NCBI GenBank assembly: GCA_021736135.1 | Contig: JAIPGO010000012.1 | Span: 1 to 59,128 of the forward strand | DNA: 59,128 bases | DNA from: Candidatus Cloacimonadota bacterium | Lineage (GTDB): Bacteria > Cloacimonadota > Cloacimonadia > Cloacimonadales > TCS61 | Reading direction: 5' to 3' | In this document: piece after piece, positions 29,965 through 53,300 of the stretch | Layout of the letters: the number at the start of each line of letters is the position of its first letter | How positions within the stretch are numbered: position 1 is the first letter of the stretch | The notes under the pieces: model-generated | Told to the model about the DNA's origin: nothing | The model's input: only the letters and a program-made list of their open reading frames with translations | The model's database searches: none | Program-made: the position numbers and the translations under genes

Positions 29965-32900
29965 CTATTTCAAGATTGCCATTTTCTGGATTCTTTCAAT
30001 ACTGTCACTGCCTTTGCGCGCCGTTACTTTGTAAAAATATATGCCATTCGCCAGTACATCACCTTTTTCGTCACGGCAATCCCAGCCGATGTTGCTGTAA
30101 GGATATTCGTGATAGCCAATGGATGAGGCAAGGTTTTTAAAGCTCTTCACCAGTCTGCCACTTACCGTGTATACCTTGATGCTCACATCATCGGCATCAT
30201 CGGTGAGAACATAAGTGAAGCGCGTGCGTCCCGTATTAATGGGATCTATGGTGAGTGATTTTACCGGATTGGGATAGTTCGCCACTTTAATTATATCAAA
30301 ATCAGCCTTTACTTCAAAGGATAGTTCACGACTGTAACTGTTGCCATTAAAATCACGGCAGCTCATCTGCAGGTAATGTATACCTTCCGCAATTTCCAGG
30401 AGCTGGTATTTAACTGGAATACTGGTGAGATTGCCCACCGAACGGTTGATACTGTAATTTGCGCTGCTTACCGGTTCGCCGTCTATATAGAAACTCAGTT
30501 CATGGTCAATTACGTCAATCCCGTTACGGTCACCTAATAAAAAAGATACGATTCCCGATTCCGAAACATAACCGCCAAAAGTAAATTCCTGTCCTTCCAC
30601 ATTTACATCGATCGAGGGTATCTCTTCGTCCTGATTATCGTAAATTGTATAAATCCCCGTACGGTCTGCCTGTAAGGTTATGGTCTGCTGACTGCTGTTG
30701 GAACCTATCGACTGGAATACCCATTTGTTATACTTGTCATTCCAGCGATAAACGGAAAGCCGGTCACGACTGCGTATTCCGGTTTTTGTTGCGGGGGAGC
30801 CATAATTAAAAACCATTTCCACTCTTTTACCGGCAGGATAATATCCCAGAGTGTCCATTAGCACACTGGAATCAAGACAGCTTAATTCATAAGCGCTGGA
30901 TATGTCTCCGCTATACAGCATAATGCCTTCGATATCCGGCTGATTTAAGGGTGTGAGAGTTCCTGTCTTCTCCAGCTTAAAGATGGCATCCACTGGCAGC
31001 AGATCTGCCGGAAATGTGCAGACCAGATTGCTGTCCAGAGTGGTTATGCTGTATTCTTCTCTACCGGTTTCAAAAAGCTGCAACTGGTAATCAGGCGTAT
31101 TCAAAGTATAACTGCCAGGGAATTCCTGAGCTTCGTTTACCCGAATGGTAAAGCTGTAGCTGCCATTTAACAGGGGTAATTTTAAATATTGCCAGCACTG
31201 GTCGCCTGCTCCCAGCCCTTCAATTCGCAGCGAATCAAGCAGCACATAACCGTTGCTGTTATATAGTTTCAGGTCACAAGGCTCACTGGCTCGGTTGCCG
31301 TTATTAGTTACTGAAAGGCGTACTGCTGGTTCATTCTCATACGCCGTAATACTAAAATCCGAAAGCAGGAATTTTACTCCTGTTATCCGGAAATAGCTCT
31401 GCCCCGGCAGCAGCGTGCAGGTTTTGGAAGCACCCGTAGTATCTGTTATTATAAATTCCAGACGAACGCTGCTATTATAAGAAAGCGCCGGGATCGGACT
31501 CGCCAACACATAGATGGCTTCTTCTTCATTCCAGACCATTTCTTCATAATAATGGCTGCTCATGGTTCCGGCTTCATTGAAAGGATCTACTCCTGAATTA
31601 TATATTTTTACATGACAGGCTACGCTGTCCACACCATTGGGATCAAAAAAATCTGCTTTCACCTCAATGCCATCTGCCGGCGTAGGTTCGACAGGATACC
31701 AGCTAAGATTATATACTCCCGCTAGTCCAATCGTAAAATTGGTAATTCCCAGAATCTCTCGTCCCTGAGAATAACCGGAAAATTTCACGTATCTGTTATA
31801 AGTTCCCTCCGGCAAAACAGATGCGCCTGGTATTTGCGTAATCCGGTTTACTTCACCGTTCACTGCATCATAAGTAAAAGGATAAAATTCGTTAGCTGAA
31901 ACCTGAGAGTCATTTTCATCATAGAGAAAAAACCTGCCTCTTTCAATATCACTGTCCACTGCTGCACTTAAAATGAGACTGTCATTTAGAGCATAATTAT
32001 ATTTATTCGTTGTAATGTCAGTTCCCAGCTCCGGTCGCACTACTTTTACCATCGGGTCGCCTAAAAGCGCACTGCCCTGCAGCAGGGAAAGCATCACGAT
32101 ACCACCACCTGTCTCTGCTGAAAATCTGATCTTGGTATAATCGATTACTTCGCCTAACGTTTCCAGAGCCGGATTTGTTAATGCACTCAGTAAAGCGCGG
32201 CTGTATGTTTCATCCTGATGAAGATAACCGAATCCGGTGAATCCGATATGACCAATAGCGCCCTGCGCATCCAGAGTTAAAGCTTCACCGATGCACGATT
32301 CACCGGCATTATCAAAAAATGCTGAACCATAACAGCTCATACTGCTGGCAATAAAGAGATTCTCATTATTCAGGTTATCAACGTCATAAATATCAAAAAG
32401 ATCATAGTCATCCCACTGATGCGAAGCGCCATGACCCATGAACTGCACATAAGTGGTGCCGTCATTAATGGCGTTTATCAGGGTTGTTGTATTACCTGAA
32501 TACGAACCCGGCATCCCGCTGGTATTGCAGTAAACCCTGGTTACACGGTATTCCGGTGGAATGGAATTTTTCTTGATGCGTTCACTCTGCTTTGAGAATA
32601 TATTCCCTTCGGAAGCTTTTCCCCCAGTTGCCAGTGTTAGGGAACTATGCCAGAAATCCTGAAACTCCGGCTGGGTCATATAATGCTCAGTTTTATTAAC
32701 GACTGTGCTTATCTGAGCTGCTTGTGTGATGTTTAACCGGGAAATACTGATATCTGCCACGATGTCATTACCGGATATACAGCCCAGCCAGTTATCGCTT
32801 GCTGTCGCTCCACGCGCATCAAACCATAATACTTTCGTAGGTATCTTGTTTGCCCACTTATAAGGACTGCTGTCCCGCTCATCCATTAAACCTTCACCTA

Positions 32901-35031
32901 AAAGAAGACAATGGGTCGGACGCGGTTCCCAGTTGTTATATGTATATTCCAGAAAATCCTTCAGGGACTGCACAGAACGAATGCCATTATTAAACTCATC
33001 AAATATATCCTGCACATAGACAATATCCACCTGCATCCCAGGATCATAACCTTCCCAGAATTCCTCAAATAGCGTTGCCCCTGCCGCGAATTCGCGAACC
33101 GTGATTATTACATAATCAGCACCCCGGGCAGATGATTTGAGCTGGGAAGGATAATCGGGAACTATACTGTCGGGCACTTTTTTTAAAGCTTCCGTTATGG
33201 CCAGATATTCAATATTATCCGAATGAACGCTGTCCTGAAAACTTATCCGATAGGGTGCTATGCCTTCTTCACTCAACGAGGTTACGGTAAGATTGGCAAA
33301 TCTGCTGGAACCGAGCTTATATACGGAAACATCTTCCGTACTGAACCCATCCAGATCAAACTGGTATAATCCTGCCGGTTGCGGTGTGCCTTGCGGTTTT
33401 AATATTGGTTTATGAAATTTTAATATATCTGAATCTGTCTTATATTCGCGCCAGTAAGTCAGATCAAGGTAATCAAGTAATACTTTTTCATACTGGTTCA
33501 CTAGATTGGGCAGACTTACGCTCAGGTTATTTTCCCCCTGATACAGGTCGGTATTTAATATTCGTGAGTTGCTGCCGGTATTACCATATCCCAGGTTTTC
33601 AAATATCTGTTCTCTTTGACCCAGCCATTCACCACTGCTGCCGATATCATTTACCAGAGCAGAATTTATCCTTACTATTGCCCGATGCAAATTCTGGGGG
33701 GTAGGTAAATATAGCAGGGAATCATCATATGTTAATCCCATCAGACAAACTCGTGCTGATGCTTTTCGGATGTTGGAAGCATGCGGATATTCCAGCTCAA
33801 AACTGAATTCTATAAGATCGGGAGCTGAAATACTGCCCCAAAACCAGACATCTTCTCTGAAATAATTGATATTGTATCTCGTCTGTGCGCCTAAATGCTC
33901 TTTCAGGTTTTGCCTTTCGATGTGTAACGTCTGCTCAAATGAGGCTGGGATCGTGAAATTATTCGTGTTGGATTCCACCAGTCCCCCGTTTTCCACCATC
34001 ATACGGCTCCCCAGATGGTCTTCCAGGCTCAGGAATAATTTGTTATCGGTGCTGTAATCATCAAACCAGCTCGTTTCGCCATGATTTATATCGGCATAAA
34101 ACTCAAAATAATCTCCTGCATCAAATGATCCGTCAGCATCCCCATAGAAATTAATGGGCACTGTTCCGTTACGGTCGCTTAGCTCCAGGTAGCGTGGATC
34201 AACATTGTCCCAACTGTAACCCGCATCGTATTCCGTCTCATAAGCTGCCAGATGGCTGGTAATAAACTCATAAGATACTTTATATAATCCTTCTTCCGGT
34301 ATGGTCAGCATATACCGTGTAACCACGCCATCGCTTCTGGGTAAAATCTCTTCGTCTGCGGGAATTCTTGACTGACGCCAGTTACGCGCAAATTGTTCAT
34401 TAAAAAGAAACTCGTCTCCTGCCTTATCCAGTATGCTGCCGGCAGTATTGCCTCGAAATGAAGATTTATCACCACTGATATCAATCCGTAAGGTCAGCTC
34501 TTCATAATAACGCAGCTTATGCCCTGCCGCATTATACTGGAAAGGATGCAGCAGAAAACTGTAAAATCTCCTGTCTCCCGCCATTGCCGTATAGCCTTTC
34601 TCTACGATTCGAAAGGGGAAATAGCTGTCACTGTGATATAGTACTTCGTTTTCTTTAAAACGGTATAACAATTCATCTTCTCTCACATAACTTTCATATA
34701 CAGGTAAAATATTTACGTCTCTAATTGTAACCGGGCTTCCGCTTAAAATCGTCACGTTGATATCACCATCCGGCGGTATGCCCACACTGCCGCTGAAACC
34801 AGGCAGATCAGGCTCTCCTGCATGATTCCCGTAAGCTGCACCTGCGCAATTGATCGTCTGCCATTCTGTACCGTTTATTTCCTGCGTTTCCTGATCCCAG
34901 TCCGGTAAAGTGAAATGGATGATCACATAGTCTTCCGTTACTTCCAGTACTTCAAAATTGTTGCCCCCAAGAAGATTACTGACTATCAGAAGCAACAGCA
35001 GGAGTATATAATTCAGATTATTCTTTTTCAC
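29965..35031 (-). CDS. PorU-like C25 peptidase with sorting domain
   Basis: A 1688-residue secreted protein. After the signal peptide and a large N-terminal beta region comes a gingipain-type C25 peptidase domain (about 610-990). It has the catalytic pair His867 (FMGHGASHQW) and Cys900 (SSMSCYGSAFF), 33 residues apart, as I recall for RgpB. Beta-sandwich domains follow, and the end is an FlgD-like sorting domain (NYPNPVKS, then GIYFYKVTARKG). The gene neighbour PorV suggests this is the PorU-type sortase, although PorU of Bacteroidetes does not necessarily have this C-terminus. The start is GTG at 35031 with a 14-base overlap with the upstream gene; the ribosome site is weak. Confidence 0.85.
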   Translation of the reverse strand: MKKNNLNYILLLLLLIVSNLLGGNNFEVLEVTEDYVIIHFTLPDWDQETQEINGTEWQTINCAGAAYGNHAGEPDLPGFSGSVGIPPDGDINVTILSGSPVTIRDVNILPVYESYVREDELLYRFKENEVLYHSDSYFPFRIVEKGYTAMAGDRRFYSFLLHPFQYNAAGHKLRYYEELTLRIDISGDKSSFRGNTAGSILDKAGDEFLFNEQFARNWRQSRIPADEEILPRSDGVVTRYMLTIPEEGLYKVSYEFITSHLAAYETEYDAGYSWDNVDPRYLELSDRNGTVPINFYGDADGSFDAGDYFEFYADINHGETSWFDDYSTDNKLFLSLEDHLGSRMMVENGGLVESNTNNFTIPASFEQTLHIERQNLKEHLGAQTRYNINYFREDVWFWGSISAPDLIEFSFELEYPHASNIRKASARVCLMGLTYDDSLLYLPTPQNLHRAIVRINSALVNDIGSSGEWLGQREQIFENLGYGNTGSNSRILNTDLYQGENNLSVSLPNLVNQYEKVLLDYLDLTYWREYKTDSDILKFHKPILKPQGTPQPAGLYQFDLDGFSTEDVSVYKLGSSRFANLTVTSLSEEGIAPYRISFQDSVHSDNIEYLAITEALKKVPDSIVPDYPSQLKSSARGADYVIITVREFAAGATLFEEFWEGYDPGMQVDIVYVQDIFDEFNNGIRSVQSLKDFLEYTYNNWEPRPTHCLLLGEGLMDERDSSPYKWANKIPTKVLWFDARGATASDNWLGCISGNDIVADISISRLNITQAAQISTVVNKTEHYMTQPEFQDFWHSSLTLATGGKASEGNIFSKQSERIKKNSIPPEYRVTRVYCNTSGMPGSYSGNTTTLINAINDGTTYVQFMGHGASHQWDDYDLFDIYDVDNLNNENLFIASSMSCYGSAFFDNAGESCIGEALTLDAQGAIGHIGFTGFGYLHQDETYSRALLSALTNPALETLGEVIDYTKIRFSAETGGGIVMLSLLQGSALLGDPMVKVVRPELGTDITTNKYNYALNDSLILSAAVDSDIERGRFFLYDENDSQVSANEFYPFTYDAVNGEVNRITQIPGASVLPEGTYNRYVKFSGYSQGREILGITNFTIGLAGVYNLSWYPVEPTPADGIEVKADFFDPNGVDSVACHVKIYNSGVDPFNEAGTMSSHYYEEMVWNEEEAIYVLASPIPALSYNSSVRLEFIITDTTGASKTCTLLPGQSYFRITGVKFLLSDFSITAYENEPAVRLSVTNNGNRASEPCDLKLYNSNGYVLLDSLRIEGLGAGDQCWQYLKLPLLNGSYSFTIRVNEAQEFPGSYTLNTPDYQLQLFETGREEYSITTLDSNLVCTFPADLLPVDAIFKLEKTGTLTPLNQPDIEGIMLYSGDISSAYELSCLDSSVLMDTLGYYPAGKRVEMVFNYGSPATKTGIRSRDRLSVYRWNDKYNKWVFQSIGSNSSQQTITLQADRTGIYTIYDNQDEEIPSIDVNVEGQEFTFGGYVSESGIVSFLLGDRNGIDVIDHELSFYIDGEPVSSANYSINRSVGNLTSIPVKYQLLEIAEGIHYLQMSCRDFNGNSYSRELSFEVKADFDIIKVANYPNPVKSLTIDPINTGRTRFTYVLTDDADDVSIKVYTVSGRLVKSFKNLASSIGYHEYPYSNIGWDCRDEKGDVLANGIYFYKVTARKGSDSIERIQKMAILK

Positions 35032-37489: not shown

Positions 37490-37585
37490 TTTCTCCTTAC
37501 CGGTAACTAATTCACACTTTATTTCTTATTTTAACAAAATTTGTACCTTCACCTCCCTGTCAACCAAAATGCCAACTCAATTTGA

Positions 37586-37627
37586 ATTATCCATCATCCA
37601 TAATCAATTATCAATTATTTAATCATC
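37586..37627. repeat. Heptanucleotide tandem array at the end of a cargo gene
   Basis: About six 7-base units in register: ATTATCC, ATCATCC, ATAATCA, ATTATCA, ATTATTT, AATCATC. It covers the stop codon (37615-37617) of the following minus-strand gene and its 3' flank. Confidence 0.65.
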
Positions 37628-38928
37628 ATTATTTTTCGGCAGGCAACCTGCCCCCCCGCTTCCAGTCTCACCAGATATATTCCCGATCCCGCATTTTGTC
37701 CATCTTGTCCATTGAGTCCATCCCAGTCCACAAAATGCTTCCCAGAACTCATCTCACCATGCATCAGTCGCTTTACCATTTGCCCCTTAAAATTATAAAT
37801 TGCCAAATCCACTTCTGCATCCCTCGCCAACTCAAACTCAATCCGCGTGGAAGGATTAAACGGATTCGGGTAATTCGTAATTATCCATTGTCCATTATCA
37901 ATTATCAATTCTTCATCTACTGCGTTTCCCAGATTAGTTACCAGATATATCCCAACATCAGTACCCATTATGAAATTCGGCGTATATATGGGATATGTCT
38001 CAAAACAGTAAACTTCCGTAAAGTCAAGCTCTGCTCCTATTTCTTCCGGTTCACTCATCTCTTCCGGTTCTACTAAAAACAAGCCATTATCATTCAGGCA
38101 CCCTACCACCAGCATTTCTTCATACTCATATAGCCGGTACGGTTCAAAAAACCAGTTGATCAGCGTCAAACCACTGATCTCACCTTCTGCATATTCCACC
38201 CGATAGACTGCATCGCTATCAGTACCGTCTCCACAAGCTATATAAACTTCTTCATTATAAGGATAGTTCCTTACATAGATATCGTTAATAACCACCGGTA
38301 CTTCATAAGATGTCCAGGTTTCTTCATCTTTCAGATAAATAAAATTTCCTGCTGAGGCAAAAAGTACTTCTCCCGCAGCTTGCTCAATATCGGTCACGCA
38401 TAGACCATTGAAATATGAAATCTCTGACCAGATGTCCCCATCTTCCGAAAAAAGCAAGCCTCCATAACCGGTTGCATATCCATACCCGAAATAGAACCCG
38501 CTGTCTAACTTCTTAACAAATTTCGGATTCATATACCAGCCGATCAAATCAAACTCATGACTCGAAAGATCAAATTCATAGAGTCCATCGCTGTTACTTC
38601 CACAACCGAAAGCAGCAAAAATCCGCGGATTTATTCCGTCCGACGCTACAGATACTGCTCCCAGATTAGTGGCAATCGAATACATCTCCAAGGTGTTAAT
38701 ATAAGTATAATATGCAATTCCCGCATTCATACCCGGTATTGCAAAGACAAGACCATATTCACTAATACCCGCCGCATCGCTATAGATCATATCATAAACC
38801 GGACGTTGAAGTTCAGGATAGAGCAGATCAAAATCACGATCTTCCTGAGCCCACAAAGCCACTGCTGCGAATACAAAAAATAGAAAAATAACGCATTTGC
38901 CAAATAATAACCGGTTGACTCTAAACAT
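37615..38928 (-). CDS. Secreted beta-rich protein with C-terminal sorting domain (paralogue A)
   Basis: A 437-residue secreted protein. A signal peptide (about 1-27, ending ALWAQ) is followed by a beta-propeller-like body (about 30-335). Then come a linker of 7-base DNA repeats (ELIIDNGQWIIT) and an FlgD-like sorting domain from NYPNPFNPSTRIEF to GIYLVRLEAGGQ. It is paralogous along its length to the gene at 41515-42816; a stretch near residues 229-285 (VEYAEGEISGLT, GCLNDNGLFLVE, EEMSEPEEI) is nearly identical. The function is unknown. Probably exported by the PorU/PorV system encoded nearby. Confidence 0.78.
   Translation of the reverse strand: MFRVNRLLFGKCVIFLFFVFAAVALWAQEDRDFDLLYPELQRPVYDMIYSDAAGISEYGLVFAIPGMNAGIAYYTYINTLEMYSIATNLGAVSVASDGINPRIFAAFGCGSNSDGLYEFDLSSHEFDLIGWYMNPKFVKKLDSGFYFGYGYATGYGGLLFSEDGDIWSEISYFNGLCVTDIEQAAGEVLFASAGNFIYLKDEETWTSYEVPVVINDIYVRNYPYNEEVYIACGDGTDSDAVYRVEYAEGEISGLTLINWFFEPYRLYEYEEMLVVGCLNDNGLFLVEPEEMSEPEEIGAELDFTEVYCFETYPIYTPNFIMGTDVGIYLVTNLGNAVDEELIIDNGQWIITNYPNPFNPSTRIEFELARDAEVDLAIYNFKGQMVKRLMHGEMSSGKHFVDWDGLNGQDGQNAGSGIYLVRLEAGGQVACRKIMMIK
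37873..37914. repeat. In-frame heptanucleotide array inside paralogue A
   Basis: Six 7-base units (ATTCGTA, ATTATCC, ATTGTCC, ATTATCA, ATTATCA, ATTCTTC) encode the 14-residue linker immediately before NYPNPFNP. Confidence 0.7.
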
Positions 38929-38956
38929 CTTTTCCTCCTTGCCGCTCTAACTGTCA

Positions 38957-41503
38957 CTATTTTAATAATAACATCTTCTTCGCAGCTAAAAACCTTCCCC
39001 TCGTTGTTAATCTAACAAAATATATCCCCGACCCCACGCTCTGTCTGCTATGTCCGCTGAGTCCATCCCAGTCCACAACATGCCTCCCCGCACTCATTTC
39101 CCCCTGCAACAGCCGCTTCACAAGCTGTCCCCGCAGATCATAAACCGTCAGTTCAATTTCCGCACTTTCCTTCAGCTCAAACTCAATCCGCGTCGCCGGA
39201 TTAAACGGATTCGGGTAATTATTTATTTTATATTTTACATTTTCAATTTTACATTCATCATTGCCCTCCACATAATATTCCGCATATCCCATATCTGGCG
39301 CTTCACCATTATATTCATCTTCATCCAGATCAATGTACACCTCCCCATTCCAGTAAAAGTATGATGTTCCGGTATCAATACATGGCGAAGCTACCTGCAG
39401 TGTAAAAAAACTTCCCGGCGGGTATATCATTAACGGATCCTCGTTCAGATTATTATCCATCCATTGCAGATTGCCATTATTAGTCACTATCTCTTCTTCA
39501 CCACCCTGAACATCAGAATTTGCTATGACTATGTTGCAAGGTTCATAGTAGTTCCCCAGGACAATTTCATACGGTTGATTTTCCCAGAGAAGACAGTTGA
39601 CGAGTACTATATCAGAATTTTCAGAACTATAGATGGCTCCCCCGAAACCCGCCGCATTAACGATCACGGTGGTGTTCACTATATTAATATCACTTCCCCT
39701 GCAGAAAATTGCACCTCCGTAGTTGTCGGCTGAATTATTATTTATTAATACCTTATCCAGTTCTATTTCAGATATACAGCAGTAAATTCCTCCCCCGTCT
39801 AATCCTGAATGGCTGCCGGACACAGTTACTTTTTCCAGTTTTAATTGTGCATTTTGTGCGAAAAGTGCTCCTCCGGGAAATTCCGAATCACCATTAATCA
39901 GGCTTAAATCACTGAGTGAACAATTTTCATCATTGATAAATGCAATAACACGATTGTTCCCATCTGCATCAATTGCTACGTTATGTTGAGATGCTCCGGA
40001 TATATTTATATTGCTTCTCATATTTTCCGGAAATATCTCACCGGTATTGGCAGAACTATAAATTCCCTGTTCTAAGAATATAGTTTGCGGCTGCTCCTCT
40101 GTGGCAGTTATTTTTGCCAGGGCATACGTTATCGAGCCTAAAGGTGCGTCTGCCGATAAACCGCTATTGGCATTACTGCCCGCGGGACTGACATATAAAT
40201 CTGCGGCTACCTGCTCAATGATGCTATGCTGTATATCATAGGGGATTAAGTTTTCGGAATAGATAAAATATTCATCAGGCTCGGCAACCGTAAATGTATC
40301 CACATAAAGTATTGTATTTTCAATTTCTCCAAAAAAACAGACATCCATTCCCTTAAATCCAGCATGATTCATATAAATATTAGAAGGTTCATTCTCGTTG
40401 AAACACAATTCCTCGCAATAAATACCGCCACCATCAACATTTGCCCGGTTATTTCTCACTGTGGTATTGTTCAGATACGTTGCCAGATAATTGTAACAAC
40501 ATATTCCGCCACCGATATTGGCTGAATTATCATGTATTAAAACATTATTTAAATCAGCTTCATTCATAATTTCACAATAAATGCCTCCTCCCTGATTTGC
40601 GGTATTATGCGATATTTCCACATTATTCAGGATCGTATTTGATAGAATCATATGAATACCCCCACCATAATATCCTGAATTACCGGTTACGATAGAATTT
40701 TGCAAGGTTACATTTCCTTCCCAAATCTCTATTCCACCCGTTACGTAACCATTATTATTCCTGATCTCCGAATCTTCGATGATGCATTCGGTATTTCCTA
40801 AAAATATTCCGCCACAATATCCGTCACTGCTATTATTGCTGACTATGACCCGGGAAATATTGCAGTTGTAACCTGAATTTGAATAAATTCCTCCTCCCAT
40901 TTCTTCTGCACTATTGTTTGTTATCCTGCTGTCTGTTATTTCTCCATTATCTGCTTGATCAAAAAAAATACCACCTCCATTGCCGGCTGTATTTAAGTCT
41001 AAGTTAAGATGACACAGTTTCGAACTGGAAGATTCCAGGTAAATTGCTCCACCACGATAACTGCAAGAGCATCCCGATATCGTTAAATATTCCAGCCGGG
41101 GACTCGCATTCAGGCAGTATATACCTCCTCCATTGTAATAACGGTCACCATTGGGATATTCAATTATAAATGTTCCGCTGCCATTAATCAGCGTGAATCC
41201 ACTCAGCACCGCTGTTGAATCCTCATTTCCAGTAAATGATACCACACTGCCGTTCTGATTGCCGTCTATGATCGTCTGGGATATAAATATTGTATCCTGA
41301 GTTGTAATATACAGACTGCTGACTGTGATGTTTTTACCATAAAAATCTATATTCTCCACATAAGTACCCGGCTCTACGAGTACCGTGTCACCATCTACAG
41401 AAACCTCAATTCCTGCCTGGATAAGTGCATAATCACCCGGTATATTGATAACCGCCGCAGACATGATTGATGTCATAAATAATAGCAATATTACCCCTTT
41501 CAT
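38957..41503 (-). CDS. Right-handed beta-helix protein with sorting domain
   Basis: An 848-residue secreted protein. A signal peptide (about 1-17) is followed by two right-handed beta-helix blocks (about 35-370 and 450-680) made of repeats such as NNSAEEMGGGIYSNSG and NVLIHDNSANIGGGICC. They are separated by a DUF1565-like segment (DLYVSPAGSNANSGLSADAPL). These folds occur in adhesins and polysaccharide-acting proteins; no catalytic motif is obvious. It ends with the FlgD-like sorting domain NYPNPFNPATRIEF and GIYFVRL. Predicted cell-surface protein. Confidence 0.85.
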   Translation of the reverse strand: MKGVILLLFMTSIMSAAVINIPGDYALIQAGIEVSVDGDTVLVEPGTYVENIDFYGKNITVSSLYITTQDTIFISQTIIDGNQNGSVVSFTGNEDSTAVLSGFTLINGSGTFIIEYPNGDRYYNGGGIYCLNASPRLEYLTISGCSCSYRGGAIYLESSSSKLCHLNLDLNTAGNGGGIFFDQADNGEITDSRITNNSAEEMGGGIYSNSGYNCNISRVIVSNNSSDGYCGGIFLGNTECIIEDSEIRNNNGYVTGGIEIWEGNVTLQNSIVTGNSGYYGGGIHMILSNTILNNVEISHNTANQGGGIYCEIMNEADLNNVLIHDNSANIGGGICCYNYLATYLNNTTVRNNRANVDGGGIYCEELCFNENEPSNIYMNHAGFKGMDVCFFGEIENTILYVDTFTVAEPDEYFIYSENLIPYDIQHSIIEQVAADLYVSPAGSNANSGLSADAPLGSITYALAKITATEEQPQTIFLEQGIYSSANTGEIFPENMRSNINISGASQHNVAIDADGNNRVIAFINDENCSLSDLSLINGDSEFPGGALFAQNAQLKLEKVTVSGSHSGLDGGGIYCCISEIELDKVLINNNSADNYGGAIFCRGSDINIVNTTVIVNAAGFGGAIYSSENSDIVLVNCLLWENQPYEIVLGNYYEPCNIVIANSDVQGGEEEIVTNNGNLQWMDNNLNEDPLMIYPPGSFFTLQVASPCIDTGTSYFYWNGEVYIDLDEDEYNGEAPDMGYAEYYVEGNDECKIENVKYKINNYPNPFNPATRIEFELKESAEIELTVYDLRGQLVKRLLQGEMSAGRHVVDWDGLSGHSRQSVGSGIYFVRLTTRGRFLAAKKMLLLK
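39218..39259. repeat. In-frame heptanucleotide array inside the beta-helix gene
   Basis: Units ATTATTT, ATTTTAT, ATTTTAC, ATTTTCA, ATTTTAC and ATTCATC encode the linker DECKIENVKYKINN directly before the sorting domain. Confidence 0.72.
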
Positions 41504-41514
41504 CCTTCTCCATC

Positions 41515-42816
41515 TTATTGCAATAATAGCATTTTCTTCGCAGCCAAAAGCCTTCCCCCCGTTGTTAATCTACAATAATATATCCCCGATCCCACACTTT
41601 GTCCATCATGTCCATTACGTCCATCCCAGTCCTCAATATGCCTTCCAGCACTAATTTCCCCTTGCAATAACCGCTTCACCAGTTGTCCCTTGAGATTATA
41701 AACGGCCAGTTCCACTTCCACATCTTCCTCCAGCTCAAACTCAATCCGCGTCTCAGGATTAAACGGATTCGGGTAATTAGTCAGGCTTATCACAGGCTGA
41801 CAGTCATTTTCGGCAGTTCCAATCACCGAATTAGTAAACATATATACTCCTGTGTCCGTTCCCGCAACAAAGTTCGGCATATAAGAGGGAAACCAGTCAA
41901 AGCAATATACTTCCGTGAAATCAAATCCGGAGATGATTTCTTCCGGCTCACTCATTTCTTCCGTTTCCACTAAAAACAAACCATTATCATTCAGGCAACC
42001 CACAACCAGCTGCCCCTCATATTCATATAAACGGTAAGGTTCCGTAAACCAGTTGATCATCGTCAATCCGCTGATTTCACCTTCCGCATATTCCACCCGG
42101 TAAACGGCATCACTATCCGTTCCATCACCACAGGCAATATATACTTCATCAACACCCGGACACGCTTTCACATAAATATCGTTGATCATCACCGGTACTT
42201 CATAGCTTCCCCAGTTTCCCTCATTTTCCAGACAGATCAGGTTCCCTGAGGCAGCAAAAAGCGCGCCCTCATTTGTTTCCTCAATATCTACAACGCCGAG
42301 TCCATAAAAAGCAGTTACTGTTGTCCAGTTGTCACCATCTTCCGAAAAACGCAAGCTCCCATTTTCCCCATATCCATAACTGAAATAAAAACCTGCATCA
42401 AGTTTCTTAATGAATTGAGGATTCATATACCAGTAAATCAAGGAAAATTCATGACTGCTGACATCAAATTCATAGAGTCCGTCGCTGTAAGTGTTACGAC
42501 CGAAAGCACCTAATATTCGCTGATTTGCTTCATCCGCCGCTATGGATACTGCTCCCAGATTGACAACAAGGGAATAAATTTCCAATTCATACTCTGAATT
42601 GTAATAAGCTATTCCGCCATCCAGACCCGGCAGAGCAAAAACAAACGTGTCGATCCCGGGAAGTTCGCTATAAAACATATCATATACTGGTCGATCAAGA
42701 TCTCGGAAGAGTCTTTCATTTTCAAGCTCCACCTGCCCCCAGACTGCTGCTGCTACCAAAACAAATAACAGCATAATTACATACTTGTAAAATAATAACC
42801 GGTTGTCTTTAAACAT
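41515..42816 (-). CDS. Secreted beta-rich protein with sorting domain (paralogue B)
   Basis: A 433-residue secreted protein, the paralogue of 37615-38928. The signal peptide ends near VWGQ, the body is propeller-like, and the sorting domain is NYPNPFNPETRIEF to GIYYCRLTTGGR. Unlike its relatives, its linker (ENDCQPVISLT) carries no 7-base array. It is separated from the beta-helix gene by 11 bases and from the FG-GAP gene by 29, so the four are probably co-transcribed. The function is unknown. Confidence 0.78.
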   Translation of the reverse strand: MFKDNRLLFYKYVIMLLFVLVAAAVWGQVELENERLFRDLDRPVYDMFYSELPGIDTFVFALPGLDGGIAYYNSEYELEIYSLVVNLGAVSIAADEANQRILGAFGRNTYSDGLYEFDVSSHEFSLIYWYMNPQFIKKLDAGFYFSYGYGENGSLRFSEDGDNWTTVTAFYGLGVVDIEETNEGALFAASGNLICLENEGNWGSYEVPVMINDIYVKACPGVDEVYIACGDGTDSDAVYRVEYAEGEISGLTMINWFTEPYRLYEYEGQLVVGCLNDNGLFLVETEEMSEPEEIISGFDFTEVYCFDWFPSYMPNFVAGTDTGVYMFTNSVIGTAENDCQPVISLTNYPNPFNPETRIEFELEEDVEVELAVYNLKGQLVKRLLQGEISAGRHIEDWDGRNGHDGQSVGSGIYYCRLTTGGRLLAAKKMLLLQ

Positions 42817-42845
42817 AGTGTCCTCCTTGCCGCTCTAACTACATA

Positions 42846-44354
42846 TCATTTCAATAATAACATCTTCTTAGAAGCAATAATCTTTCCTCCTGATGCTAAT
42901 CTGCAAAAATAAATTCCTGAACTAACGCTTTGTCCGCTTTGTCCGCTGCGTCCATCCCAGTCCACAAAATGCCTGCCCGCACTCATTTCACCTTGCTCCA
43001 GCAGCGTCACCAGTTGCCCCTTTAAATTATAAACAGCCAGCTCCACCTCAGCACTTTCCATCAGCTCAAACTCAATCCGCGTGGAAGGATTAAACGGATT
43101 CGGATAATTATCAATTTTACATTTTACATTTTCAATTTTACATTCATCATTATCATTACTATGAAGCCCATAAACCGTGGCAGTTGTCCCCAGATTACCC
43201 GTACCGTCGCCATCGTTGACCAAAATCTCGTCCTCTCCATCTCCATTAACATCTCCCAGACCACAGATAAACCAACGGTCATCCGAACCAGTACAATCGG
43301 CCACATTAAAATACGCATCATAACCAAAATCAATAGTATCTCCACCATAATATATTGCCACAATTTCTTCCAGCCGGTTCCAGCAGACCAGATCATCAAT
43401 CCCATCACCATTAATATCAGCAACAATGCGCTTGCCATCTGTCACAATATCATAATCTTCCGCTACCAATTCCCCGGAATCATTTATATTATACGTCCTC
43501 AAACTGCTTTCCTGGCTATAAATGATCAGTTCCTCACGTCCGTCTCCGTTAATATCACCCGTCGGTAACTGCACATAATTACCATTATTACTCAATGTAT
43601 CCGGAATTATGTAGTCACAGACCAGATCGAATTCTTCACCACCCAGATATATTTCCAGAAGACAGGCATAATCCCAGTAGCCCACGCCTCTGCTGGCGAT
43701 CAGATCATCATATCCGTCTCCATTCAGATCACACACGGCAAAATTACTCCCAAACCATTCCTCACTTTCACCTTGAATAGAATAACACTGTTCCGTACTG
43801 AACTCTTCCGCTCCCGGATAAATACGGATGAAACCGCCAAACAGCATTTCAATATACCCGTATAGCAGCAGATCGTCATAACCGTCACCATTAAAATCAA
43901 ACCCGCCATTCAATGGTACACCTTCCGACGTGCTCAATACCAGCTCCGGCTCCAGATCTATCTCTTCAGCACCCAGGCAGATATAAGAATCAACCGCATC
44001 TCCCCAGTATTCACAAGCACACCAGACTATATCCTTATAACCGTCTCCATTCAGATCTCCACCCCAGGTAGGATAACCACTGCAATGGGGACATTCCAGT
44101 TCGAAATTATAAGTTCCATTAAGAGGAATCCCTCCCAGATAAAATTGTAGATAATCCTGGAAGGTTATGCTCATATAATCGTCAAAACCGTCATTATTAA
44201 GATCACTGCCTCTCTGATTCGGATTCGCGCACTTGAAAAGAATACTGTCTCCCGCATCCCAGGTAACGATAGCCTCCAGAAGTTCCTGCCCCATTAATAA
44301 CTGGAAAAACAATAATACAACTAATAGAAATAAGCTTCTAATCGTGTTTTTCAT
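42846..44354 (-). CDS. FG-GAP/VCBS repeat protein with sorting domain
   Basis: A 502-residue secreted protein. A signal peptide (about 1-22) is followed by a seven-bladed-like propeller of FG-GAP repeats with calcium-binding loops (DLNNDGFDDY, DLNGDGYKDIV, DFNGDGYDDLL, DLNGDGYDDLI, DINGDGREELI, DINGDGIDDLV, DVNGDGEDEIL). A linker of 7-base repeats follows (DECKIENVKCKIDN), then the sorting domain NYPNPFNPSTRIEF to GIYFCRLASGGK. It is probably the first gene of the cargo operon; TTGACA at 44432-44437 (minus) lies about 80 bases upstream, and GGAGG precedes the ATG. Confidence 0.86.
   Translation of the reverse strand: MKNTIRSLFLLVVLLFFQLLMGQELLEAIVTWDAGDSILFKCANPNQRGSDLNNDGFDDYMSITFQDYLQFYLGGIPLNGTYNFELECPHCSGYPTWGGDLNGDGYKDIVWCACEYWGDAVDSYICLGAEEIDLEPELVLSTSEGVPLNGGFDFNGDGYDDLLLYGYIEMLFGGFIRIYPGAEEFSTEQCYSIQGESEEWFGSNFAVCDLNGDGYDDLIASRGVGYWDYACLLEIYLGGEEFDLVCDYIIPDTLSNNGNYVQLPTGDINGDGREELIIYSQESSLRTYNINDSGELVAEDYDIVTDGKRIVADINGDGIDDLVCWNRLEEIVAIYYGGDTIDFGYDAYFNVADCTGSDDRWFICGLGDVNGDGEDEILVNDGDGTGNLGTTATVYGLHSNDNDECKIENVKCKIDNYPNPFNPSTRIEFELMESAEVELAVYNLKGQLVTLLEQGEMSAGRHFVDWDGRSGQSGQSVSSGIYFCRLASGGKIIASKKMLLLK
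43107..43155. repeat. In-frame heptanucleotide array inside the FG-GAP gene
   Basis: Units ATTATCA, ATTTTAC, ATTTTAC, ATTTTCA, ATTTTAC, ATTCATC, ATTATCA. They encode the linker before the sorting domain and closely resemble the array at 39218-39259. Confidence 0.72.
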
Positions 44355-46254: not shown

Positions 46255-46399
46255 CTGAATGACTGATGGAGGGATAGACTGCTGGACTGATAGACGAATT
46301 GACGGCTAACGATTAACTATTAACGACTAACGATCAACGACTAACGGTCAACGACTAACGATCAACGACTAACGATCAACGACTAACGCTTAACGCTAG
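46253..46399. repeat. Octa- then heptanucleotide tandem arrays filling a convergent intergenic gap
   Basis: Seven 8-base units (GACTGAAT, GACTGATG, GAGGGATA, GACTGCTG, GACTGATA, GACGAATT, GACGGCTA; 46253-46308) run into fourteen 7-base units (ACGGCTA to ACGCTAG, mainly ACGACTA alternating with ACGATCA; 46302-46399). The array starts within the stop codon of the plus-strand gene and ends over the stop codon of the minus-strand gene. Confidence 0.85.
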
Positions 46400-47364
46400 A
46401 TCGTCAACCCCAGCAGCAGATTATTATGACCTTCCCAGGGGGTGAAGAATCGATAAGCAATATCGAGCCGGAAAGTCCTGGAAGCATATTTGAATTTTAT
46501 CCCGCAGCCGATATTGAACTGGTTATTTTCTAGGGAAAAGAGCTGCGTTGAATAACCGCAGCGCAACGCCAGAGCATCAGACAGCAGTTTAATTTCCAGA
46601 CCATTACGGAAGCAGTCCCTGCCATCGGAATATAACGTTTTGTTATAATCAAGACTCAAGGCAGTATTGCTTGACTGGTATGCATATCCAACGATGAGAG
46701 CTACGGGGCGGGATTCGCTGTAACTACCCAGCGCAGTTCCGGTTTCATTACTGGAATTCCAGAAAATATCGTTGAGTAGATTACGGTTGAAAATACCAAG
46801 ACGGTTTTTCTCATTGAGCTGATATTGCACCCCCCAGTCAAGGGCATAACCGAAGGAATTACCTTTCACCTGGTGTTCCAGCCCGTTATTGTCAACATAG
46901 GAGCCAGAGGAGTTATTTCCAAAGCTGCTGCCCAGAAGTTTCAGGTTTGCCCCCAGAGCAAGTTTCTGCAGAAATTCATACTGCGGAAACAGTCTGCCGG
47001 CATTAGCCGACCAGGTAAGGGTCATTTCGTATTCCGACATCACGTCATCACCGCAGAAATCAAGACCCGCACTCAGGATAAAACTGTTATTCAGCTTTAA
47101 GGCAGTACCAAGGTAGTTGTAACTGAGCAACTGGAAATAGGTTGAATTGCTGCACTCAAAAGTATAGTGCTGCATTGTATTTGCCAGGGCAGCGGGATTT
47201 GCCAGGGCGGCAGAGGGAGAATAAGCAGCCAGCGCTATTCCGGCACCACCCATTGCCATTAAGCGGGGATTATAATCATAATAAGCCGGATCGATACCAC
47301 TCAGCCACTCTGCATTCAAGTGGCATAATAATAAAAGCAGCAGGAGTAAAGGTATAACTTTCAT
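46396..47364 (-). CDS. PorV/FadL-like outer-membrane barrel
   Basis: A 322-residue protein. A signal peptide (about 1-18) is followed by PRLMAMGGAGIALAAYSPSAALANPAALAN, the same N-terminal hallmark as the PorV-like protein at 28943-29956 (MGGA, then D/SPSA and NPA). Amphipathic strands continue to the aromatic end YRFFTPWEGHNNLLLGLTI. It lies 8 bases after the giant surface-protein gene, suggesting it helps export or anchor that protein. Whether it is a true PorV paralogue or a general FadL-type barrel cannot be settled by eye. Confidence 0.72.
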   Translation of the reverse strand: MKVIPLLLLLLLLCHLNAEWLSGIDPAYYDYNPRLMAMGGAGIALAAYSPSAALANPAALANTMQHYTFECSNSTYFQLLSYNYLGTALKLNNSFILSAGLDFCGDDVMSEYEMTLTWSANAGRLFPQYEFLQKLALGANLKLLGSSFGNNSSGSYVDNNGLEHQVKGNSFGYALDWGVQYQLNEKNRLGIFNRNLLNDIFWNSSNETGTALGSYSESRPVALIVGYAYQSSNTALSLDYNKTLYSDGRDCFRNGLEIKLLSDALALRCGYSTQLFSLENNQFNIGCGIKFKYASRTFRLDIAYRFFTPWEGHNNLLLGLTI

Positions 47365-47372
47365 TTATTCCC

Positions 47373-50300
47373 CTATTTGATCAGCACAAGCGTGCGGAGC
47401 GCTTCCTGCCTGCCAGTGCTGTCCTCGGCGATCAAGTGCAGCAGATACCTGCCGTTGCGTGCCATGGCTCCTTTATCCGTGTAACCGTCCCAGTAAAGCG
47501 TATTCAGTTCCCCGGGAGCATATTCGCCTTTGAGCATTGTCTGAGCAGTTGCCAGCTGGCGTACAAGTTCACCATTTACAGTATATATGGCAGCGGAAAT
47601 CTTTACAAAGCGGCTTTCCTGCGAAGAAATGCGGAAGGAAATCTGCAGTCCGGGATTAACGCCCACCTGGTCATACGGTGTAAAGGGATTAGGCAGTAAT
47701 TTCAGGTCATAAATTCCGAGTTTTCTCGAAGCTGCCAAAGCGGCGTAATCTTTAGCAAGATGGGTGATATGCTCAATTTCCGGAGCCAGTGGATTTAAAA
47801 TCTCCCAGGTAAGGGATTTATCATTCCAACGGGCACAGAGCAGTTCCGGTTCAGAACTGGTAAAACTGAGTCCCGGCAGTTGCGAAAAAGCACTTTCGGA
47901 AAGATCAGAGCTGGCGCGGAATACGCTGCTGCGGGTTTCATAGCTGATGTCCACTTCCTCATACGGTGGAATGTTACGGGGATTCATGTAAAGCTTTGCC
48001 TGGTACTGCGGATTTTGCAGCATCTGCTCATAAAGCTGCACCTCGCAGTCCAGCCCGGTAGTGAGCACTTCGGTAGAAGTGCCGGCATTGATCAGCTCAT
48101 ATATAGTCACGTTGAAGGAAGCCTTATATTCCTCCAGAGAAAGCGGGTCCGTAACTACAGCCTGAAGTGCGGTTTTACCAATGAAAAAGTCATCAGGTTC
48201 ATAAATAATGCTGCCGGAACTGATCTTAACGTCACCGGCAAAGGAGCTTACAGGAATAACCTGAAACGGCAGAGTCAATTCTCTTCCCTCACCGGTAAAT
48301 ATCTGTACATTATAAATACCGCTGGCACTGTTACGAAGTTCATAGGGACCAGTGATATTAACGCTGGCGACGGAGAATGTGCCCAGCGTAATAGCACAGT
48401 TTACTTCCAGGTAAAAATCTTCATAATCAATCATAGCTGTGATCTGCCCTTCTATTTCCGGTATGCCGAGAATAGCAGCAGAGAAGTCGAGAAGCAGATG
48501 ATTATCAGGGTGAACGCTCAGGCTGCCCAGAGCTCCGTTATTGATCGTCCATTCAATAGTGCCTTCTGCGGCAACTGATTCGCTAAGGTTATTTCCCAGC
48601 AGATCAAATATCTGCAGTTCAAAGAGCAGTTCCGTAGCATAAGGCAGCAGAGGATCTTCGGGGAGAATGCGGGAAAACTGGGCCGAAGGTATGCCGGCAG
48701 CTGATATTTCCAGCACCTGATGATAAGAAGCACTGCTGTAAGTTACCCCGGTAAGAGTGTCTAGTGCCGTAAACCAGAATTCTATATTACCGGCAGCATT
48801 CTGGGCAGGTATTTCTGCCTGAAAATATCCCTCTGAAGAATCCATGGTAAGGCTGACCTGGCTGCCATTAACTTTGAGGTAATGCAGTAGGGCATTGCCC
48901 TGAAAATCTCCTGCCTTATATAGCAGAATAGAGATATTTTCATTGTAATTATAAAAATCTTCATAATCTGCCTGATCAAACCAGAGCGGCAATACTCTCA
49001 TTAACTGATGATAACCCAGAGTATCAAGAATAATCGTCTCGGCTGGGGATACCAGGTAAACGAAATCAGCAGACAGTGAGGGTGATAAACGCAGACTATA
49101 AGCTCCTGTATGCAGCAGAGCTCCGGATGTGCAGTAGCCATACTGGTCAGTAACCATAGTCAGGTTCATTTCCTCATTGCTGAGTCTTGCCGATATACCC
49201 GGTAAACCAATCCCGGTTGCACTGCTGACCGATATTCCCAGTTCGCAAAGGAAATACTGAAAGAAATGGTCATATTGATGATCCGTATTGAAATGGAAAG
49301 AAGGAGAGGTGTAAGTAAATTCTTCCTCGTCATATTGTGCCGTGATCCGCATAATATAATCATCTTCCAGTAAACTGGAAAACAGGTAATAACCTTTCTG
49401 GGAAGCATGCTGCACATATTCTTCACCACCGGCGGCACTTAGCCTTATTTCCGCTCCCGGCAGGGGCTGCAATCCGTTATTTTTCATATAGATGTAACCC
49501 TGCCAGTCCCAGGTATCCGGTACCCAGGTAAACATGAAATCCTCTATAAGTATGCTTTCTTCCTGTATTTCAATATCCTGCCGCAGTTCATAATATTGAT
49601 GGCTGTAATAACTTCCGGAAAGTTCCAGCGAAAAGACATCAGTAATGACCAGATCGCTAAAAAGGTAAGTACTATCAGGAGATGAGCCTTCCAGGATGAT
49701 ATCAATTCCGCTGAGAGACTGCAGCCTCAGGTTGTAACTGTCCAGCGGCTGCCAGGATTCATCCATGATCTTTATACTGCCGGAAATATCCGCATAAAGG
49801 ATGACGGGCTGCAGATAAAAATTCTGCTGGTACCAGCTTTGCTGCCAGTCAAGCTCGATCATCATATTTTCTGCCGGATAGTAGTCATCGCAGGATGCAC
49901 TTAGCTGCCATACCCCGATGGTATCGGCAATGATTTCATAGTAGCCGGAAGCATCTGTAGTGTCGGATATTGAACGGGAGACGGGAGACGGGAGACGGGA
50001 AGACGTGAATCGTGAGTCGTGAGTTGTGAGTCGTGATAATTCTGCTGTGACGATAGCGCCTTCCACGGGTTGATTATTATCAGTGTGGACGTACCCATAG
50101 ATATAGAGTTCTTTGTGAACCAGGTTAAAATCGGCAGTTGGCGGGTTTTGAATCCCGCCGGCGAGAGTAACTTCAATTTCCTCTGCTTCATAATAAGCGG
50201 GGTGCTGCGCCTGCAGGTAATAAACGCCATCTGCCAGGGGACTGAACAGAAAAGTTCCATCAGCAGCAGTTACATAAACGTCTATTGGTATATGCAGCGA

Positions 50301-53300
50301 ATCTGCAAGAGTCACCAGCGCACCGCTGATACCCAGACGTGTATTTATCCGCTGCACCACGCCGCTGATGGCGTTCTGCAAAAACATGAGATGCACATCC
50401 GGCAGTTCCACTATTTCTCCGTGACTTACGGAGACCTCCTGGGGAGGATCAATGAACTGGTAACCTTCGCAGTAATAGACCAGGTTATAGGTTCCGGGGG
50501 CCAGCCCTCGCAATTCATAGATACCGTCTTCTTCGGTTATGTCTTGTGCCCACCTGCCACTGGCAATATTAGTGGCTGTAACCGTTACTCCGGGTTTGGG
50601 ATTATTTAGATATAGTGCTAATCCCCGGATGGAAGCAGCTTCTACAAGAAAAGTGTGAAACCTTTGACTCCCCCCTGCCGGGATAACTACTCCCTGAGCA
50701 ATGCTGGTCAGTTCTTCCCCTGCTTCCGCCCAGACATCAAAATAACCGTTAATATTGGTAAAGAGGTAATCACCAAAATCATTACATTCTGTTTGCTGCA
50801 GTTCACTATTCGGATCTCTGATTTTAACTATTGCCCCGGGATAGGGCTGGTTCTGATAATACACACTGCCGCTAAGACTGTTATTGATGGATTGCAAAAT
50901 AATATCGAGAGCCGGAGATCCCGGGATGACCGGGTCAGGATGTGTGTAAGACAGAAAGCCGAGTTTATTTGCCGTAATTTGATATTCTTCTGTTATTGCC
51001 AGATAATCAATCTGAAAAGCACCACTGGCAAGTGTAGTATCTGCATCAATTATAACATCGCCCTGCCAGACTTTTACAATAGCATTTGCCAGTCCCGTTT
51101 CCGTAGCGCTGTGCACAATTCCGCTGATAGCATCTGCCACCTGGTTCAAGTAAATATTATGCGTTAAAGCATCATAATCGTTAATATTCAGCTGCTGGGC
51201 AAATAGTTCATAACCGGGACGAGAACAGGAAAGTTCATAACTGCCCTCATAAAGCCGGTTAAAAGCGTAATAACCGTTTGACTGCGTTGTATAAGTAAAC
51301 ATAGTATCCGGATTTGCTATAATTACCGTGGCATTTGCCAGAAATCCTTCTATCCCGCTGATGTAACCGCTAACAGATGCATTATGCAAATCTATTTCCA
51401 GAAGCAGACCGCTGATGTCTTCAGCTTCCGTCTCTAGTTCGAGCCAGTCATTGTCATAGTAATTAACCGGCAGACTCGTGGTGACGATCACCTGGCTATA
51501 TGGTGGTGCCTGTGAAAAACTGAAACTACCGTCATCTTCCGTAAAACGCGTATAGGTGGTGGAACCGGTAAGCAGATCCACCGGGATGCCGGTATATATT
51601 CTTCCATTCGTGTCCATCACCATACCTGAAATTTGCAGCGGCTCATTATACTGCAGTTCCAGGTCAAGCAGCAGATCCTCCCGATGCGGCACATATATGC
51701 TGTCCAGCACCAGGGGACTGTAATTTTCTGCAAGCACCTGCAACTGGTAATAGCCTTCATATAAATAGCGGATGCGGTAACTCCCATCGGGCTGTGAAAC
51801 AGCACCGGCAGTTTGACCCGATTGCTGACTGGCAGCTGTAACAATCGCTCCGGATACCGGCTGTCCATTATATGAATCTGTAAGTGTGCCCAGAACCTGA
51901 CTCGTGTGCACAGGTAGAATTACTTCACCAAAATCAAGATTTGCCGTTACCAGTGTATCCTGCCAGTTAATGTTTTCATACCCGTTCTCATCCGCCAGAG
52001 TCCAGAAATTATACGTGGAAAAAGGAGCTAGAGGCTGTAGCAGGAAACTGCCATCGGTGCCTGACTCAGTCTGCGCACCCGTGATCACTCCCTGGCAGTA
52101 AACCTGAATGCCGGGCAGTTCATAACCTTCCTGATCCACCAGAATTCCACTTGCCTGATAATTGTGCGCATATATAACAATATCCACCTGCAGAGGGTCA
52201 TCGCTAAGAAAAACCACTAATTCATCTCCCTGAGAATATCCGGGTTTATTCACTGTAAGCTCATATTCGCGGTTGGTTGCCAGATCTTCCAGCAGATAAG
52301 TACCATTTACTCCCGTTATATCCGAGGAAACGTATCCATCCAGGCTCTGAGCACGCACCGTAGCTCCGTTCACGGCATTTCCGTTCTGATCATGCACAAA
52401 TCCGCTGATAGTGCCGTCAATGCGCAGCAACTCAAAAACGAGCTGCAGTGTATCAGCGGGTATGGGATATACCAGTGTATCGGAAGCAGCATAATTAGTG
52501 AGACTTACGCTAACCACATAAGGCATAAGGCTGGTAATTCCGGTAAGCAGACTGTAACCGCTGGCGTTAGTCACAGCGGAAACGGTTTCCCCGCTGATCT
52601 GATTTTCGGCTGCCACAGTAGCTCCTGCCATACCCGCACCGGCATAAGTTACATTAGCCTCAATAGCGGCTTCAAATGGTTCCAGCAGAACGTCTATCAC
52701 CGTTGTATAGCTTCCCGGCAGAATCCGATTGGCTTCAATATGACCATAATATCCGGCTTTGCTGTAGAGTATGGATTCATATAATCCCGGAATAAGTCCA
52801 TCCAGAGAATAATATCCGGCAGCATCCGTATAGCCGCTGCTGCCGCCACCACCGCTGTAACTGGCACTTATGAGTACGTCTGCCAGTGGTTCTCCACTGT
52901 TTTCATTCATTACATAGCCTTCCAGAACAGCAAAATTCTCCTGCAAATAGAAATCAAGGGAATCAAGCTGACTGCCGGGAGTGAGGGTTATATCCAGAAA
53001 ATCTTCCAGGTAACCGGGTTTTACGGCAGTTACCGTATAATCACCCGCAAACAGGCTGAGTAGCCAGCTTCCATTAATTCCGCTTAAGGTGGAATATACT
53101 GCTTCACCTTCTGCTGTTACCGTAGCGTCGGCAAGTGCCATACCTGCCTGATCATAAACACGTCCGGATATGGTGGATGGCATTTGCGTGAGTATTATTT
53201 CCAGATAGAACTGCTGGGCTATTTCCAGTATTCCGGTTACTGCCGTATTAGCGCTGTAACCAGCTTTAAAGGCATAAATTTCGTAACTTCTGGCCGGTTC

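Follow-up and report, generated by a model that had tools for sequence, protein, structure and literature searches.

Heptanucleotide arrays form the linker between passenger and sorting domain in a subset of the T9SS cargo genes of the Cloacimonadota genome analyzed here. The repeat class is known, and its coding niche in T9SS linkers is new and well marked, which makes it a clear case of a common, unexplained bacterial repeat class being translated recurrently at one structural position. The reading that we favor, with a probability of roughly 0.7, is that a disordered linker under no constraint received copies of this class again and again, and that these were kept only where they lay in frame and free of stops. 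Observed for the linker arrays themselves were their repeat class, location, frame, avoidance of stops, codon use, constant length, occurrence with varied passengers and tails, and recurrence in a second genus.

The window (the whole stretch of 59,128 nt that was analyzed) is one contig of a 4.14-Mb, 148-contig genome, for which the closest named relatives according to prolyl-tRNA synthetase belong to the Cloacimonadota. The cargo genes and arrays of the window were as follows.

37577..37631 (-): heptamer array that starts at the stop of gene 37615 and extends into the intergenic DNA on its 3' side
37615..38928 (-): T9SS cargo gene, 437 aa; C-terminal type A sorting domain, passenger a paralogue of that of 41515
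37873..37914 (-): heptamer array, linker of gene 37615; six units, in sense of the ATTGATA/ATGGACA/ATGGATA/ATTACGA type, encoding EELIIDNGQWIIT before NYPNPFNP
38957..41503 (-): T9SS cargo gene, 848 aa; right-handed beta-helix/POMP-repeat passenger plus sorting domain
39218..39259 (-): heptamer array, linker of gene 38957; six units of the ATGTAAA/ATTGAAA type, encoding DECKIENVKYKIN before NYPNPFNP
41515..42816 (-): T9SS cargo gene, 433 aa; tail similar in kind to that of its paralogue 37615, linker without an array
42846..44354 (-): T9SS cargo gene, 502 aa; FG-GAP repeats plus sorting domain
43107..43155 (-): heptamer array, linker of gene 42846; seven units of the ATGTAAA/ATTGAAA type, encoding DECKIENVKCKID before NYPNPFNP
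46296..46405 (strand not assigned): intergenic heptamer array flanked by convergent genes, AACGACT/AACGATC type, from the same repeat class
49960..50045 (-): G+C-richer heptamer arrays (ACGGGAG, CGTGAGT), in frame inside a 3153-aa gene and encoding RLTTHDSRFTSSRLPSPVSRSI

When at least 20 of 28 matches were required at lag 7, the window held 6 arrays; shuffled copies averaged 0.0, and lags 4 to 6 and 8 to 13 gave none. ATT recurred every 7 bases exactly as the initial annotation had described at 37873-37914 (6 units), 39218-39259 (6), and 43107-43155 (7), and the linker of 41515 indeed lacked an array. That list was incomplete, missing the arrays at 37577-37631, 46296-46405, and 49960-50045, the last of these coding in frame for part of a CarboxypepD_reg domain in the CarboxypepD_reg repeat gene at 47373-56834. 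Six units do span 42 nt, but one inference fails: when the 37615 linker is aligned with that of 41515, the gaps leave a net difference of only ~6 nt, so the array took the place of linker sequence and did not lengthen it by 42 nt.

All four cargo genes bear the T9SS type A sorting domain (TIGR04183/PF18962, FlgD_ig PF13860), with TIGR04183 scores of 33.5, 37.7, 33.1, and 33.1 bits, each above the NCBIfam cutoff of 23; their secretion via T9SS is predicted. Compared with known type A domains theirs is ordinary, except for the hairpin-loop arrays found in some members. In an AlphaFold2 model of the 42846 tail, built from four sequences and of modest quality (mean pLDDT, 62.7), the linker is predicted to be disordered (pLDDT, ~35) ahead of a beta-sandwich, and the second array site described below falls at a hairpin.

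Arrays of this kind were not particular to linkers and were spread genome-wide. Across 436 kb of sampled stretches we found 85 period-7 arrays, against 0 to 1 at each of lags 5, 6, and 9 to 13; lag 8 showed a smaller but real excess of 20 arrays. Seventy-five of the 85 were noncoding, and array density was 1.04 per kb in noncoding DNA versus 0.028 per kb in CDS; arrays were counted in the 436 kb of stretches and, in addition, in regions around tails. Many unit families were represented (e.g., ATTTTAC, TCGTCCA, ACTCGGA, GTGAGTC, GTTCACT, and ACTAACC), and ATT-type arrays occurred in 48 of 59 related genomes. The arrays of the window belong to the dispersed heptanucleotide short tandem repeats, a known class that occupies the unconstrained DNA of this genome. 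Octamer (8-nt) arrays were also enriched and were mixed with heptamers in very dense tracts (L056 [contig C80:1-18000], L045, and L057). Noncoding arrays often adjoined short palindromes such as GCAACCTGCGGTTGCCG or CTTCACTGCGTTCAGCG (L039, L322, L323, L325, and L328).

The heptanucleotide repeats known from prokaryotes (cyanobacterial STRR; TAACTGA of Beggiatoaceae, PMC4679880; heptamer-derived satellites, PMC6749651) likewise have 7-nt units and are dispersed and mostly intergenic; the arrays described here share with them both tandem 7-nt periodicity above chance and a chiefly intergenic, genome-wide spread, as well as the exclusion of the stop-bearing orientation from genes. PMC4679880 predicted that repeats would be tolerated at the ends of proteins and, in modular ones, between the parts, and it reported several ORF cases. 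Here, in contrast to the known repeats, many unit families coexist, the coding copies cluster at a single recurring boundary in one secretion class and in one phase, and the coding strand is closed unless units alternate. Two other systems offer partial parallels. Rickettsia palindromic elements (reviewed in PMC10969869) are also short and dispersed, occurring in frame in unrelated genes without conflicting with the function of the proteins, and the arrays likewise lay in frame within several passenger groups; those elements, however, are palindromes of ~150 bp, whereas the arrays are A-rich heptamers of ~35 to 55 bp found almost only in secreted proteins. The amino acid tandem repeats of Borgs (PMC9879509) also arise from DNA tandem repeats that yield disordered segments and are enriched in extracellular proteins, but their units are divisible by three, while 7-nt units give no unit-by-unit peptide repeat. 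Our literature search turned up no report of heptamers in T9SS linkers, nor of any in Cloacimonadota.

Only 7 arrays of the 436-kb sample lay truly inside convincing genes: 5 in T9SS linkers, 1 in a sorting-domain loop, and 1 in a CarboxypepD_reg repeat protein. Three of the 5 linker arrays were the preselected ones of the window, and with the window excluded there remained 2 linkers and 1 loop and nothing else. Among 123 distinct tails examined in this genome, which came from an unanchored profile search and are an unbiased set, an array ended on the NYP codons in 16 genes, and by unit-family count at least 22 linker arrays exist genome-wide among ~300 tails. The 7-base autocorrelation that the initial annotation had proposed to look for in related linkers was present: lag-7 scores were bimodal over the 123 tails, with a signal in ~7% of tail linkers. 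The arrays are real and do sit at a fixed domain boundary. The suggestion of a tolerated hotspot also fits, in that genes with T9SS tails hold nearly all in-gene arrays and the linker is predicted to be disordered.

Two further sites recurred. The first, at +94 to +178 nt in the tail, was the sorting-domain hairpin loop before VxWDG, where the same peptide was encoded as in the linker. The other was the stop codon: among 30 arrays detected in the 300 nt beyond it, 17 started at -2 to +16 nt relative to the stop, and stop codons of T9SS genes opened arrays of several families (L002, L036, L037, L049, L057, L070, L146, L244, and others). There the stop codon apparently belonged to the first unit and kept its phase (p ~0.001, although detection favors such cases). 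One array (L054:16829-16872) overlapped the beginning of a 361-aa gene, whose start codon and initial residues (MENYKSKILLAG) it may provide.

Selection on strand, frame, stops, and length can be read here against a large set of noncoding controls in the same genome. Since 7 and 3 have no common factor, the frame in which a unit is read shifts from one copy to the next until all three have been used after three copies, and only mixed arrays, with ATTGAAA, ATGTAAA, and ATGGAAA alternating in a fixed order, stay open. Slot use followed this: ATTGAAA occurred 0 times among 33 linkers in slot 3, where it would read AAT TGA, and ATGTAAA never occurred in slots 1 and 4, where it would read ATG TAA; in the neutral slot 2 the count was 13 against 10. 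The coding strand was the A-rich one, on which noncoding AT-rich arrays were nearly always closed by stops. The opposite strand was open in more frames and would give hydrophobic peptides (mean GRAVY, 0.97 versus -0.14), yet linkers were always read on the hydrophilic A-rich strand.

According to the favored reading, heptamer arrays would repeatedly take the place of the disordered linker that joins passenger to sorting domain; in some tails they would likewise replace the hairpin loop inside the sorting domain. They would persist since linker and loop may tolerate almost any hydrophilic sequence, as long as the array is read from the A-rich strand, stays in frame, and contains no stop. The resulting peptide (KIENVKCKI- or IIDNGQWII-like) would be a plain flexible spacer of fixed length, probably with no function beyond spacing. 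Arrival may have been by DNA copying (gene conversion or template switching) anchored at ATTAYCC, the NYP codons resembling one more unit; arrays might alternatively be born there, seeded at ATTAYCC. Several findings weigh against so simple an account. Linkers used AT-rich unit families only, whereas most noncoding arrays belonged to other families, so linkers do not sample the arrays at random. Linker arrays were few or absent in many array-rich related genomes, so abundance alone does not produce them.

The phase of the arrays bears on how they are made. ATTAYCC was the last unit in all 30 array linkers that we aligned (four genomes, two genera), but the search pattern applied to relatives imposed this phase, which is therefore no independent evidence there. 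AATTAYCC was the commonest form in array-free tails as well (53 of 98, versus 15 of 17 array tails; p 0.008, uncorrected for shared descent). The constant phase relative to the NYP codons is a handle on how heptamer arrays are made, and it admits a bolder reading, possible though rather unlikely, in which the arrays would act as a dispersed element, overwriting DNA in register with short preexisting seeds (ATTAYCC at NYP, AAA-stop at gene ends); some copying process would write repeats until constrained sequence is reached and would so supply new protein linkers.

Fixed phase, order, and length are also compatible with a single ancestral linker element inherited with duplicated tails, and these three features were identical everywhere, genus g5 included. 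Such descent, in which one ancestral linker array and its sorting domain were duplicated as a cassette and shuffled onto new passengers, the array merely marking the copies, seems unlikely to us. On a weakly resolved tree of 131 tails, array presence was more clustered than by chance (19 changes versus 28.7 when shuffled), and 38957 (beta-helix) and 42846 (FG-GAP) joined unrelated passengers to near-identical linkers and to tails of one starred clade. But starred sister tails disagreed in array presence (L107/L140; 41515 versus its three neighbors; L231/L039), linker identity tracked the identity of the tail (r = 0.11) or of the passenger (r = 0.16) only weakly, and an identical 33-nt linker occurred in genes with strongly differing tails and in unrelated passengers. 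The same sequence, moreover, appeared in the within-tail loop and at noncoding sites. Strict descent was marked down on the disagreeing sisters and on the identical linkers of different tails; from the tree, the sisters, and the weak correlations together, array presence is partly inherited and partly moved or lost. Loop arrays clustered on the tail tree too, a circular result given that the loop columns were in the alignment.

Genera g1 and g5 often had linker arrays, which were sporadic in the rest, though other genera were also array-rich. The same linkers recurred in the second genus (g5). In unbiased tails of six relatives, linker arrays were found in g5 only, and four relatives outside g1 and g5 gave single cases at most, these from the phase-fixing pattern. 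The near-absence of matches to the phylum-wide pattern carries no meaning, as that pattern demanded AWT where units often read ATG.

Codon choice distinguishes copied DNA from conserved protein. In array linkers, K was AAA in 34 of 34 cases, E was GAA in 19 of 19, N was AAT in 33 of 33, and V was GTA in 10 of 11, whereas synonyms were used freely in the tails of the same genes, each codon bias differing (p 0.0075 to 8e-6). Frozen codons (AAA, GAA, AAT) show a DNA-level origin of the array linkers, and amino acid conservation alone, which the initial annotation had named as the explanation that would undo its claim, was rejected on this evidence. It is highly unlikely that KIENVKCKI is a selected protein motif (e.g., a sortase recognition segment) with the 7-base period a by-product of its codons. 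The same peptide was present at two sites and in two genera and always came from the hydrophilic strand despite the more open alternative; but synonymous codons were frozen within the array and free on either side of it, and variation went by whole units (ATGTAAA, ATTGAAA, ATGGAAA; hence TGT/TTG/TGG) and not by chemistry (C/L/W). Most tails also lacked a KIENVKCKI-type peptide, the same DNA was common outside genes, and in the genomes examined no distant relative was seen whose linkers retain the peptide but use other codons. Array-coded linkers should not be taken for conserved secretion motifs.

Linker length was constant. The 30 array linkers aligned without a gap over 11 codons, their paralogues differed by unit substitution at constant unit number, and no unit gain or loss was seen among linkers compared across species (one genome per species) and paralogues. 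L107, with an array, and its paralogue L140, without one, had linkers of equal length, so arrays replace rather than add; this may reflect limits on linker length or the manner in which arrays arise. The tunable spacer put forward by the initial annotation, a contingency locus whose unit number would set the distance from passenger to sorting signal for the sortase, is the least probable reading and a very improbable one: the arrays do sit at that boundary, and three units (21 nt) would preserve frame, but the gap-free linkers of two genera and the L107/L140 pair disfavor it, and ~93% of tails work without any array.

A synteny search via the neighboring proS gene found no close relative with these cargo genes. 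Many contigs (C42, C46, C58, C63, C82, C87, and others; near base 131) stopped ~130 bases past a T9SS tail, which suggests that the assembly was broken by repeats after tails. Flanking the cargo genes of the window were a PorU-like C25 peptidase (29965-35031; 253 bits, below the equivalog cutoff of 420) and a weak PorQ/PorV-like protein (46396-47364).
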